A stretch of 56,522 nt of DNA. It comes from Bacillota bacterium (GTDB lineage Bacteria; Bacillota; UBA4882; UBA10575). A program made the translations under genes and the position numbers. Location: NCBI GenBank assembly GCA_012839115.1, contig DUNX01000020.1, positions 1 to 56,522 of the forward strand, in the 5' to 3' direction. Shown here piece by piece: positions 50,115-56,522 of this stretch (position 1 is the stretch's first letter; each line of letters opens with the position of its first letter). A model generated the notes under the pieces. The model saw only the letters and a list, made by a program, of their open reading frames with translations. It did no database searches and was not told the origin of the DNA.

Positions 50115-51232
50115 GAAGATTTTATAGGCGTTTATTACCGGCTCTTTTCTTCTTTTTCCTCCTGTTTTCCTGTGCGACTGCCGTACAGGCGGGAGAAAAA
50201 CCCGGAGAGCCATACCGTCCGCGTTTGGAGATGGAATATATCATTCCGGTAATCTTCTATGACGGAAACCTTTATTCCCTAATCTACGGGCGGATGAGCA
50301 GTGTGCTCCGCGACCGGGAACTGCAGTTTTTTCTCTGGGCCGACCAGGGCGCGGGGGTTTTCAACTATGCCCTGGGTTATACCAGGCACCATTACAAGTG
50401 GTCAACCGGGATCAACCTGTACTCAATGCCGGTTAATATTGGCCCGGTTTGGGCTTCCGGAGTCTGGGAGGAACAGACGGGCCTCAGCCTTCTTGCCACT
50501 TACCGCCGGACAAATGAGACCAGATTCACTTTTCGCTTGCAATGGGAGAAATTTTTCCCGCTTATTGTGACTTCTTCTTTTCCCGAAGATCCGGATGAGG
50601 GCTCCCTTTTGGGATGGGAGGTCAAGGCGATTAAGGATGATTTTTCTTTTCTGGCCCAAAAGGGGACAAGGGCCTATGCTAGCCTGGGAGGAGCTTTTCC
50701 CTTTCTCAACACCGGTTATAGTTATATAAAAATCGAAGAAGACTGGCGGCGTTATTACCCGTTGAACCACCGGGTTTCGGCGATTTTGAGTTTGCGGGGC
50801 GGGAAAATATGGGGTGACCACCCGTCCCACCGCGGTTTTATTATCGGCGGCGTCCAGCAGGCCAATATGAGCGGCCTTGGGAATCTGGTCAATCAAGGAT
50901 CCTTATGGGCCCTGGCCGATTCGACGCTACGCGGGTATCCTCTCTATCAATTTAGTGGCGACGGGTTTTTCCTGGGCAATCTGGAATTCAGAACTCTGCT
51001 TTATCCTTCTTCATACTATGATCTCAAATTCTTTGGACTGCTTGGTTCGGTTTTTTTCGACGCGGGTCAGATCTACAAAGGAGCCCTGGCACAAAGTGCC
51101 AGCCCTCTGGCTGCCTGGGGAGTAGGGCTAAAGCTTTTCTTCGGTGGTTTGTTGGTGGGTGTTGATTACGCCGTGCCAATGGATCCGGGCGCAAAGCCCT
51201 GCTGGCATATTAGCCTCGGAGAAGTTTTCTAG
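50111..51232 (+). CDS. Short Omp85-family outer-membrane barrel without POTRA domains
   Basis: 373 residues. A signal peptide with AVQA cleavage (about residue 27) is followed directly by barrel strands; there is no room for POTRA repeats. The Omp85 C-terminal signatures are present: the lid-loop motif LRGYPLYQ (273-280, equivalent to VRGF), GNLEFR, SVFFDAGQIYK, and GVGLKLFFGGLLVGVDYAVPM. The terminal strand is HISLGEVF, ending in Phe. This matches the short noNterm Omp85 group. Coupled to the preceding peptidase/propeller gene. It argues for an outer membrane in this organism. Confidence 0.78.
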   Translation: MRRFYRRLLPALFFFFLLFSCATAVQAGEKPGEPYRPRLEMEYIIPVIFYDGNLYSLIYGRMSSVLRDRELQFFLWADQGAGVFNYALGYTRHHYKWSTGINLYSMPVNIGPVWASGVWEEQTGLSLLATYRRTNETRFTFRLQWEKFFPLIVTSSFPEDPDEGSLLGWEVKAIKDDFSFLAQKGTRAYASLGGAFPFLNTGYSYIKIEEDWRRYYPLNHRVSAILSLRGGKIWGDHPSHRGFIIGGVQQANMSGLGNLVNQGSLWALADSTLRGYPLYQFSGDGFFLGNLEFRTLLYPSSYYDLKFFGLLGSVFFDAGQIYKGALAQSASPLAAWGVGLKLFFGGLLVGVDYAVPMDPGAKPCWHISLGEVF

Positions 51233-51297
51233 AAACGAGGCGCCGGAATACTGGCGACCGGGGATATGGACTTTCAAACAAGAAAGGACTGATTACA

Positions 51298-52365
51298 TTG
51301 TCCATTAAAGTACTGGTCGTTGATGATTCAGCCTTTATGCGGCAAACAATCAAAAGGATTTTACAGGCGGACCCGGAGATTGAAGTCGTTGGCGTGGCGG
51401 TAGACGGTGAAGACGCCTTAAAAAAAGTTGAGTTTTTTAAACCGCAGGTTATTACTTTGGATCTGCGAATGCCGCGCATGGATGGGCTGGCCTTCCTCAC
51501 CGCACTGATGAGGACCTCGCCCCTTCCTGTTGTCCTGGTCAGTTCCTGGGCCCAGGAAGGTACGGAAGAAACCTTGAGAGCTCTGGAGCTTGGGGCCGTT
51601 GATTTTGTTACCAAGCCCAGCAGCGAACCGACAGAAGAACTTTGGCAGATTGGGGATGAACTGCGGGGGAAGGTCAAAGCAGCAGCGCATGTCCGGGTGG
51701 ACAAAATCCAGGACCTGCCGGAAAAAAGGATCGCTACGGTCTCACCTACCCTGGAAAGAAGCCACCTGAAAATTTTGGCGATGGGCGCTTCAACCGGCGG
51801 CCCCCGGGCCTTCCAATTTATCCTAACCCACTTGTCAGCTGATTTTCCCCTTGGGATTTTGATTGCCCAACACATGCCCAGTGAGTTTATGGAGATCTTT
51901 GCCGCCCGCCTCAACGGCATGAGTCAGCTCCGGGTAAAAATAGCTGAGGAAGATGATTTTATTTACCCGGGAATGGTATTAGTGGCTCCCGGCGGTTTGC
52001 AGACCCGGTTGGTTAAAAAGAAAGCCCCGGACGGGCACGAGAGTGTACGGGTTCATCTTACACGGGAATACAATGTTTACCAGCCTTCGATCGACGAGAT
52101 GTTTTTTTCTGTGGCGGAGACCTACGGAGACCAGGCCATCGGGGTGCTATTGACCGGGATGGGCGCTGACGGCGCCCGTGGGTTGCAGCGCCTGCGGGAG
52201 AAGGGTGGCCTGACAATTGCCGAGTCTTCGGAAACCTGCGTCATCTACGGAATGCCCAAGGCGGCTCGAGAATTGGACGCAGTGGATTATCTTCTGCCGC
52301 TGACGGAAATCCCGGACCGGATTTGTACTCTGCTTTCGGAGCAGAATTTTCCCGTAAAAAGCTAA
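51298..52365 (+). CDS. cheB: Chemotaxis methylesterase CheB
   Basis: 355 residues. N-terminal receiver: KVLVVDDSAFMRQ, phosphoacceptor Asp55 in TLDLRMPRMDG, and the conserved Lys in TKPSS. The C-terminal methylesterase has Ser in MGASTGGPRAF, His in AQHMP and Asp in LTGMGADGA. It would demethylate or deamidate chemoreceptor glutamates. TTG 51298 with AAAGGA upstream. No other che gene is in this window, so it is detached from a chemotaxis operon. Confidence 0.95.
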   Translation: MSIKVLVVDDSAFMRQTIKRILQADPEIEVVGVAVDGEDALKKVEFFKPQVITLDLRMPRMDGLAFLTALMRTSPLPVVLVSSWAQEGTEETLRALELGAVDFVTKPSSEPTEELWQIGDELRGKVKAAAHVRVDKIQDLPEKRIATVSPTLERSHLKILAMGASTGGPRAFQFILTHLSADFPLGILIAQHMPSEFMEIFAARLNGMSQLRVKIAEEDDFIYPGMVLVAPGGLQTRLVKKKAPDGHESVRVHLTREYNVYQPSIDEMFFSVAETYGDQAIGVLLTGMGADGARGLQRLREKGGLTIAESSETCVIYGMPKAARELDAVDYLLPLTEIPDRICTLLSEQNFPVKS

Positions 52366-53948: not shown

Positions 53949-55205
53949 ATGTCCTGTTTTCCAGAGACAGAACGCCTGTGTCGGGCCTATGCCCGTACGA
54001 GCGGCGTGGCCACCTTTGTTATTGATAATAAAGGGCGGGTGGTTAGCCCGGAGATCCGTTTTTACTCTCCCCACAGCTTCTGCCGGATCATCCGGAAAGC
54101 ACCGGAGCGGGAAGAGCAATGCGCCCATGCGCATTTATACGGCAGCTACCAAGCGGAACGATTTGGCGACGCTTATGTTTTCTTTTGTCCCTTCGGCCTG
54201 GTCCACTGGGTAGCGCCGGTGATTGAGAATTACCAGTTGGCCTACGCCCTGGTGGTAGGGCCTGTGTTAATGAGTACTCCTGAGAATGCGCTGGTCAAAG
54301 AGATTTTGATTAAAAACGGACTAACAACCGGAGAAATCCAAAGACTTTATGGGGAATTGGCACGAGTCCCTTATTTCCCGCCACCGGTGGTTACCGATAT
54401 GGCAGCGGTACTTTTTGCCACTGCTTCTCACCTGTCGGCCCTTGCCGGCAGCAAATTGGAACAACGGAAAGAATTCCACGAACAGCAGGCCTCAATCGCT
54501 GAAAAATTGCAGGCCATCAAAAACCGGGACGGGCAAGAAAAGCGGTCTTACCCCCTGGAAAAAGAGAGGGAACTCCTTAGCAAAATCCGGCTCGGTGATA
54601 AAGCCGGCGCGCAAGAGATTTTGAATGAAATTTTCGGGTATATCTTTTTTACTGCGGGGAACAAGATTGAGCTGGTGAAAACCCGCGTAATGGAATTGGT
54701 GGTTTTGCTTTCTCGCGCGGCCTTGGAAGGAGGGGCGGATGATGAGGTAATTTTTGGGCTAAATTACCGGTATCTCCGGGAAATCGGAGACCTCAAAAGC
54801 TTTGACGAGATCGCTTATCTGCTTTCAAAAGTTATGGCCCGTTTTACCGATTGCGTATTTAACCTGACCGGAGTGAAAAATATTGATCTCATTTACCGGG
54901 CTGTTACTTATATGCGGGAGCATTATATGGAAGAGATCAACCTGGAAAAGGTGGCGAAAGCAGTAAACCTGAGTCCGTCATATTTTAGCAAGGTCTTTAA
55001 AGAAGAGATGAAGTGTAATTTTAGTACTTATTTGAATGTTTTGCGGGTGGAAGAAAGCAAGAAATTATTGTTGGACAAAAAGTTGCCCCTGGTTGAAGTG
55101 GCAGGGCGGGTCGGCTTTCAGGACCAAAGCTATTTCACAAAGGTTTTTAAAAAGCTGATGAATACATCACCCGGGGAATTCCGGAAATCCCGGGGAACTA
55201 GATGA
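53949..55205 (+). CDS. PocR-domain AraC-family transcriptional regulator
   Basis: 418 residues. The N-terminal PocR ligand-sensing domain (about 1-165) has CRAYARTSGVATFVIDNKG, FCRIIRK and CPFGLVHWVAPVI, followed by a linker with coiled-coil character. The C-terminal AraC DNA-binding domain has two HTH motifs (LEKVAKAVNLSPSYFSKVFKEE; LVEVAGRVGFQDQSYFTKVFKK). PocR domains occur in regulators of B12-linked catabolism. Its stop overlaps the frame of the corrinoid gene next door, so the pair is probably co-expressed and functionally linked. Confidence 0.88.
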   Translation: MSCFPETERLCRAYARTSGVATFVIDNKGRVVSPEIRFYSPHSFCRIIRKAPEREEQCAHAHLYGSYQAERFGDAYVFFCPFGLVHWVAPVIENYQLAYALVVGPVLMSTPENALVKEILIKNGLTTGEIQRLYGELARVPYFPPPVVTDMAAVLFATASHLSALAGSKLEQRKEFHEQQASIAEKLQAIKNRDGQEKRSYPLEKERELLSKIRLGDKAGAQEILNEIFGYIFFTAGNKIELVKTRVMELVVLLSRAALEGGADDEVIFGLNYRYLREIGDLKSFDEIAYLLSKVMARFTDCVFNLTGVKNIDLIYRAVTYMREHYMEEINLEKVAKAVNLSPSYFSKVFKEEMKCNFSTYLNVLRVEESKKLLLDKKLPLVEVAGRVGFQDQSYFTKVFKKLMNTSPGEFRKSRGTR

Positions 55206-55225
55206 AAGAGGGGGAGAGGAAGGCA

Positions 55226-55864
55226 ATGAAGATTTTGGAGCAGATTTCTGAGTTACTGCAGCAGGGGCGGGCAAAAGAGGTACAGGAAGCAGTGAAAAAG
55301 GCATTGGACACAGGGCTTCAGCCGCAAGAAATTATTGCCAATGGTCTGTTGGCCGGGATGTCGATTATTGGGGCAAAATTCAAGGTTAACGAGGTCTATG
55401 TCCCGGATGTTTTGATTGCTTCACGGGCTATGAATGCCGGGATGGAGACCTTAAAACCCTATATAGTGGAAGCGGATATAAAACCCATCGGGAAGATCGT
55501 CTTGGGAACAGTCGAAGGGGACCTGCACGATATCGGGAAAAACCTGGTGAAAATCATGTTTGAGGGCGCCGGGTTTCAAGTTTTTGACCTCGGTATTGAT
55601 GTGCCGGCTGACCGCTTCGTGGCCAAGGTGAAAGAGGAGAAACCGCAGATTTTGGCCATGTCGGCTCTACTTACCACCACTATGACCAATATGGAGAAGG
55701 TGATTAAAGCCGTGGAAAAAGAAGGGCTCCGGGCAGGGCTATCAATTATGGTGGGCGGGGCGCCGGTGACTGAAAGTTTCGCCCAATCGATCGGCGCCGA
55801 CCTTTACGCTCCGGATGCGGCTTCCGCTGCGGAGGTGGCACGGGAAAAAGTTGCTGCCCTATAG
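55226..55864 (+). CDS. Corrinoid protein of a methyltransferase system (MtaC/MtbC-like)
   Basis: 212 residues. The N-terminal helical cap domain (about 1-85) is followed by the B12-binding Rossmann domain, with base-off ligand motif D99-x-H101-x2-G104 (GDLHDIGKNLV), SALLTTTMTNM and GGAPVTESFAQSIGADLYAPDAA. It carries a methyl group between a substrate methyltransferase and an acceptor such as tetrahydrofolate. No methyltransferase (MtaB, MtrH, trimethylamine type) is in the window, so the substrate is unknown. ATG 55226 is preferred over 55202 by family start and SD. Confidence 0.92.
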   Translation: MKILEQISELLQQGRAKEVQEAVKKALDTGLQPQEIIANGLLAGMSIIGAKFKVNEVYVPDVLIASRAMNAGMETLKPYIVEADIKPIGKIVLGTVEGDLHDIGKNLVKIMFEGAGFQVFDLGIDVPADRFVAKVKEEKPQILAMSALLTTTMTNMEKVIKAVEKEGLRAGLSIMVGGAPVTESFAQSIGADLYAPDAASAAEVAREKVAAL

Positions 55865-55877
55865 AGCAGAACATACG

Positions 55878-56159
55878 ATGGTCGTCGGAGTCTGCCGTCT
55901 TCAGCTGCGGTTACCGGAGACTTTTTCTCTCAAAGATAAACGGCGAATCATCAAGAGCTTGCAGGATAAGATTAAGGCCCGTTTTAATCTCTCCGTAGCG
56001 GAGGTCGCCTTTCAAGAGGAAAAGGATCTTTCTGAATTAGCCCTGGCCGCAGTAGGAACGGCACGGGATCCGGTCCACCGGATGTTTATGAAGAGTTTGG
56101 AATTGGTGGAGAATGATGGCCGCGGTGAAGTGTTGGGGGTTGAAGTGGAATGGCGCTAG
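55878..56159 (+). CDS. DUF503 / YlxP-like protein
   Basis: 93 residues. VGVCRLQLRLPETFSLKDKRRIIKSLQDKIKARFNLSVAEV and a late LGVEVEWR match the DUF503 (YlxP) family. These are small proteins usually found by rbfA and infB and thought to act in ribosome biogenesis. Here it is outside that context, behind the corrinoid gene. ATG 55878 has a weak SD. The stop codon touches the terminal repeat element. Confidence 0.85.
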   Translation: MVVGVCRLQLRLPETFSLKDKRRIIKSLQDKIKARFNLSVAEVAFQEEKDLSELALAAVGTARDPVHRMFMKSLELVENDGRGEVLGVEVEWR

Positions 56160-56371
56160 GTGGCAGGTCATCCGGAGTTTTGTTCCTAACGTACAGGCCA
56201 ACGGTTACTAAGGCTCAGCGGCGGCCGGGGACGGGTACATGGCTTACGGGACCTCCTTGTCCCGGAAGCCAACGGGTCGCGTCGTGCGTCCCGCCCCGTC
56301 CCCGTCCTTTGCATTCGCCAAGTAACCGTAAGGCTGTACGCAAGTCACAAAACTCCGGATGACCTGCCACC
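56159..56371. repeat. 213-bp inverted-repeat element with branched internal fold, copy 1
   Basis: Outer arms 56159-56183 and 56347-56371 are perfect 25-bp complements. Inside, 56191-56208 pairs with 56322-56339 (14 of 18 or so positions). GGGGACGGG (56227-56235) pairs with CCCGTCCCC (56295-56303). Two hairpins sit within: GGCTT-n-GGGAC / GTCCC-n-AAGCC around loop CTCCTT (56241-56270), and CGGG/CCCG (56273-56293). The result is a long stem closing a three-way junction. No coding sequence is supported inside. Confidence 0.85.
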
Positions 56372-56375
56372 ACTG

Positions 56376-56522
56376 GGGTTTGCTTGGGTGAAAACTTGCA
56401 TAGGGGTATTCCTAACATACAGGCCAACGGTTACTAAGGCTCAGCGGCGGCCGGGGACGGGTACATGGCTTACGGGACCTCCTTGTCCCGGAAGCCAACG
56501 GGTCGCGTCGTGCGTCCCGCCC
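56376..56522. repeat. Second copy of the repeat core, truncated by the window edge
   Basis: From 56409 (TTCCTAAC) to 56522 the sequence repeats 56183-56296 with a single G-to-A change (56191 to 56417). The period is 226 bp. The preceding flank (about 56376-56408) has no resemblance to the left arm of copy 1. Confidence 0.85.

Follow-up and report, generated by a model that had tools for sequence, protein, structure and literature searches.

What is a 213-bp hairpin, followed by a nearly identical second copy that lacks one arm, doing behind a gene at the very end of a bacterial contig? The stretch of DNA analyzed here (the window; 56,522 bp) is the entire contig G000:C121 of a 148-contig Bacillota genome, and the contig stops within the second copy. 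By following the element into related genomes and across a sample of 398 Bacillota genomes, we arrive at a reading to which we give a probability of about 0.7: the window hairpin is an old copy of a mobile repeat resembling a MITE, now fixed and duplicated in tandem, and the center of this repeat is homologous to the TwoAYGGAY motif (Rfam RF01731). In the consulted passages that name this motif, it is a probable RNA of unknown function described by Weinberg et al. 2010 (PMC2864571) and, since a 2014 paper proposed that role, a candidate CsrA-binding RNA (PMC4333381); those passages give no description of it as mobile.

The hairpin element and its second copy

Copy 1 occupies positions 56,159–56,371 (forward strand), as defined by its fold together with covariance-model matches. 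The outermost 25 bases on either side are exact complements (GGTGGCAGGTCATCCGGAGTTTTGT / ACAAAACTCCGGATGACCTGCCACC); these arms enclose an internal loop (CTAAGGCTC/TTCGCCAAG) and then a three-way junction bearing two terminal hairpins, the first (56,241–56,270, forward strand) with the loop CTCCTT, which on the opposite strand is AAGGAG and hence a GGA loop, and the second (56,273–56,293, forward strand) with the loop GTCGT. The folding energy is −143.5 kcal/mol versus −77.2 (SD 4.2) for shuffled sequences (z = −15.7); none of 200 shuffles folded as well, and z is still about −15 for the opposite strand or with DNA parameters. The perfect arms and branched core described in an earlier note on this DNA are thus real.

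So is the second copy that the note had placed 226 bp further on with a single mismatch. Copy 2 (56,409–56,522, forward strand) starts 226 bp after the corresponding start in copy 1, and the contig runs out before this second copy is complete; of the 114 bases that can be read, 113 match copy 1. Its left flank is indeed unlike the copy 1 arm (shuffle p = 0.97). This is most simply explained by tandem duplication of positions 56,183–56,408 (forward strand), a unit that, judging from the 226-bp spacing, would consist of the core, the right arm (56,347–56,371, forward strand), and a 37-bp spacer (56,372–56,408, forward strand). The left arm of copy 1 (56,159–56,182, forward strand) lies outside this unit, and copy 2 would lack a left arm because the duplicated unit began inside it. 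An independent tandem array is found inside contig G004:C57, and there too the later copies are without the left outer arm.

A conserved site between DUF503 and RACo

The genes in front of the element encode a PocR/AraC-type regulator, a corrinoid (B12-binding) protein (55,202–55,864, forward strand), and, in the same direction, a DUF503 protein (55,815–56,159, forward strand), the stop codon of which touches the left arm of copy 1. The gene behind the element is found on separate contigs in the three species of the genus (G000:C52, G001:C51, and G002:C99), each of which, in the proper reading direction, starts with remains of the element followed by the gene for RACo (Pfam assignment checked on the G001 copy). 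RACo proteins are reactivators of corrinoid proteins. DUF503 is followed by copies with the same arms in both other species, and the DUF503–RACo site carries the element in all three; all three assemblies also break in the array at this point.

Apart from single differences, the left arms of copy 1, L009, and L010 are equal, as are the right arms of copy 1, L002, L009, and L025. The proposal that the arms vary around a constant core therefore fails locally, where the visible copies share their arms, and has some truth between lineages, where a common core is set within different outer arms. The spacer between copies 1 and 2 is similar to the sequence that follows the last copy on contig C52 (shuffle p = 0.018). 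A continuation of copy 2 into C52 would be conjectural, since the two have two mismatches in their overlap. A right arm of copy 2 complementary to positions 56,376–56,408, which the variable-arm model had predicted, was not found beside the nearest continuation (p = 0.42); the true right flank lies off the contig. As a separate observation, an element in G009 (L144, G009:C113) lies between an outer-membrane protein gene and cheB, a place at which the window (51,232–51,298) has only 66 bases.

A phylum-wide family homologous to TwoAYGGAY

An enlarged covariance model (R2) detected the core in 48 of the 398 sampled Bacillota genomes, representing 35 genera. The original description of a repeated structured element with a constant core was right. 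The core is composed of a long stem, a three-way junction, and a pair of hairpins whose loops contain UCC (GGA on the opposite strand). Both apical loops carry UCC in 48 of the 49 members compared; the one exception is the window sequence, which keeps it in one of its two loops, the GTCGT loop of hairpin 2 being the sole loss. With such conservation, the suggestion that the resemblance of the first loop to an anti-Shine-Dalgarno sequence may be chance no longer holds. Across the phylum set, 39 of 42 pairs changed on both sides, and 87% of cells were paired versus 32%–49% when slid. The check for covariation over homologues, which had been proposed from the window sequence, supports both the long basal stem and the three-way junction that it carries. 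The weak match L011 in G018 was rejected as a member because the covariance model did not confirm it, and searches of phage, plasmid, and viral collections returned no relatives of the element.

An Rfam search with the window copies gave no match at E ≤ 5, RF01731 included, and the relation to that motif surfaced only through distant homologues. Measured against the RF01731 gathering score of 43 bits, the distant homologue L166 scores above it on the opposite strand (54.5 bits), and L007, from the window's own genome, falls below it (32 bits), as does the match at L224. In the reverse direction, R2 was run on seven RF01731-positive loci and recovered L166, L247, L246, and L248 (E from 1e-17 to 1e-6) and, weakly, L244 (0.009); L245 and L249 were not found. 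Across the 398 genomes, the RF01731 model has matches in 50, for the most part at loci other than those of R2. Because the two models detect each other's loci, we treat the window's family and RF01731 as branches of one family, homologous on opposite strands, with the window copy apparently too diverged for the Rfam model. On this view, it is homology and not the Rfam score that makes the window element a diverged branch of TwoAYGGAY. Near one family member, in G066 (L171:1737–1915), a purine riboswitch (89 bits) adjoins and overlaps a sub-threshold guanidine-I-like match, 110–290 bases beyond the element.

Mobility in two copy-rich genomes

Two distant genomes contain the element in large numbers, with at least 117 copies in G174 and at least 61 in G159. 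Their copies share terminal inverted repeats (GATTNNRCTGCAAAAAG), outside which the flanks are unrelated. Exact direct repeats of 6 or 7 bp stand right outside the ends at 25 of 63 places in G174, among which there may be a few related ones, where about 0.8 would be expected (6 bp at 16 of 63, 0.55 expected; 7 bp at nine of 63, 0.23 expected), and inspection of G159 revealed a direct repeat at 10 or more of 14 copies. Terminal inverted repeats, target duplications (G174 and G159), and dispersed copies at differing sites are all properties of a MITE, and in these two genomes the element is a MITE-like mobile element. The contrast that the earlier note had drawn with an ordinary MITE does not survive, in that the arms in both copy-rich genomes are constant terminal inverted repeats. 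The idea that the outer arms are host terminators entered by the core is likewise ruled out in G174 and G159, since the arms are common to copies with unrelated flanks.

Four short G174 elements have the same inverted ends and no core (L203:1731–1865, L215:28–180, L267:2358–2502, and L287:1883–2019), and two of them have matching direct repeats outside. Such forms make it less likely that movement requires the core; since they moved too, mobility alone leaves the conserved core and its loops unexplained.

For the window, mobility is the extrapolation we favor. For the window copy, neither a target duplication nor a transposase was found, no counterpart of the G174 and G159 inverted repeats can be recognized in the window's family, and the perfect 25-bp arms of copy 1 are candidate transposase ends only. 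A search for Y1 transposases found none in G000 and G001 and one in G002, and reverse transcriptases (PF00078; retron, group II intron, diversity-generating element) are absent from G000, G001, G002, G004, G006, and G009. We suggest that the elements move as short non-autonomous DNA on which a putative transposase acts in trans, presumably by recognizing the terminal inverted repeats and making 6- to 7-bp target duplications. One copy, of the same origin as the G174 and G159 elements, would have inserted just after DUF503 in a common ancestor of the three species of the genus and remained palindromic; a later tandem duplication, of a 226-bp unit with its start inside the left arm, would have produced copy 2.

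Composite forms and orientation within the window's family

Within the genus, the core recurs in composite (type B) elements, in which a different repeat with inverted ends (TTGCCGGATTGCCGGCAG) surrounds it; L007 represents a third form of core-bearing element. Comparison of five sites showed type B elements that one species has and the others lack or have in a different form, and these insertion differences among the three species support the mobile reading. One orthologous site has the same outer repeat in all three species (L161, G002:C1; L070, G000:C79; L069, G001:C111) and three different interiors: an intact core, a core with a deletion, and another module.

Three further features of the genus were seen in passing. 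Composite elements L130 (G000:C2) and L132 (G001:C107) have opposite orientations between the same two flanking genes, as if inverted between their ends. The outer repeat also occurs without the hairpin (L056, L057, L061, L062, L066, and L069), with a different conserved interior (TATACATCGAGTATTATCTGCGCTCC...), and is then another repeat of high copy number in the genus. Degenerate ACGAGYGACGAG repeats are found in intergenic regions beside many elements (L005, L006, L057, L063, and L066).

The covariance model also detected members in further genera of the family, and an alignment of 30 members shows changes on both sides in 27 of 42 pairs. At orthologous sites, divergence is lower at paired than at unpaired positions, and in most comparisons compensated pairs exceed a naive expectation. 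One feature of the window's family counts against mobility: 24 of 25 copies, a set of partly orthologous loci that by our grouping holds about nineteen independent cases, are preceded by a gene on their own strand, which is unexpected for an element that inserts at random. The orientation of G174 copies relative to genes is mixed (eight with, eight against, and four between convergent genes); having no such bias in this copy-rich genome, we dropped the same-strand bias as evidence for an RNA.

RNA or DNA, and the competing explanations

Selection on an RNA would favor G.U pairs. The two types of stem change, G.U and A.C, are about equally frequent at every level compared: 14 G.U versus 18 A.C pair types in the window's family, 39 versus 35 cells across the phylum, and 114 versus 115 single stem changes among 61 G174 copies. 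These counts therefore give no sign of selection on RNA, and the test names no transcribed strand.

The explanation that fares best after the mobile repeat, and one we hold as a tentative possibility compatible with a mobile origin, is that the strand opposite to the one given here is transcribed as a CsrA-binding RNA, its two GGA hairpin loops sequestering the protein. GGA (on the Rfam strand) is kept in both loops of nearly all members compared, in many genera, while the stems change. A motif match has been published (PMC4333381), and the csrA gene occurs in each of 17 element-bearing genomes tested outside the window's genus, a suggestive count that covers bearing genomes only. However, csrA was found in none of the three genomes of the window's genus (the window genome and two congeners), the window copies lack GGA in one loop, read-through from the gene in front would yield the UCC strand around the window and not GGA, and G.U is not in excess over A.C.

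Alternatively, the hairpins could function within the message itself, by protecting the upstream transcript, lowering read-through into RACo, or offering UCCU loops to Shine-Dalgarno sequences. In 24 of the 25 family loci the element follows a stop codon immediately and points the same way as the gene; this, the lower divergence of paired positions at orthologous sites, and the conservation of the site in three species would all fit such a role. We nevertheless consider it unlikely, given the mixed orientation in copy-rich genomes, the absent preference for G.U, and the lack of any U-tract seen in the sequence behind the window element.

It is more doubtful still that copy 2 is an assembly artifact, a misjoined contig end with no true tandem copy behind it. 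Contigs of all three species do end in or beside the element, and the relatives are metagenome-assembled genomes; against this, the two copies are separated by unique sequence, the C52 copy has two further differences, and the tandem array of G004:C57 lies inside its contig. Least credible of all is a hairpin module that changes its arms by copying or inserting into its flanks, which could draw on the different left flank of copy 2, the different arms of lineages with a common core, and the three interiors between the same ends at one orthologous site, but which is opposed by the constant arms of the other copies at the site and within G174 and G159, by the failure to find the complement of the copy 2 flank at the nearest continuation, and by the same left-arm loss in the independent array of G004:C57.

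Implications and comparison with known systems

A broader proposal, which we advance as rather unlikely, is that TwoAYGGAY is the body of a phylum-wide mobile family with paired CsrA-type loops and not primarily a host regulatory RNA, such that each insertion would add binding sites for a global regulator of the host and the loops would decay freely where csrA has been lost, as in the window's genus. If TwoAYGGAY is mobile, its covariation and its wide distribution would have to be interpreted differently, the motif itself may need reinterpretation, and automatic annotation as a cis-regulatory RNA would be misleading; genomes rich in copies and genomes free of csrA would also allow a direct test of the CsrA hypothesis. 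Strong covariation without a preference for G.U may serve as a simple means of telling DNA palindromes from RNAs.

The family shares with TwoAYGGAY a long basal stem, a three-way junction, and two apical hairpins with GGA loops, with full-length reciprocal matches on the opposite strand. It differs in that the window copy is unmatched by RF01731 and has lost one GGA loop, and whereas TwoAYGGAY is described as an RNA, the family here behaves in two genomes like a mobile repeat of high copy number. Several GGA hairpin loops are likewise a feature of Csr/Rsm sponge RNAs (CsrB, RsmY, and RsmZ), and weak clan matches were seen; a dedicated transcript would be hypothetical for this family, and no csrA was found in the window's genus. 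REP/BIME repeats, which are associated with RAYT transposases, resemble the family as palindromic repeats behind genes, often in tandem, whereas members of this family are 200–320 bp long with a three-way junction, and G000 and G001 are without a Y1 transposase. Compared by description only, the family also resembles bcr1–bcr3 of the Bacillus cereus group, MITE-like repeats often located in UTRs and operons (PMC3446304), which are also short intergenic repeats that end up in transcripts; bcr1 is described as specific to that group, whereas the window's family spans 35 genera among the 398 genomes sampled.
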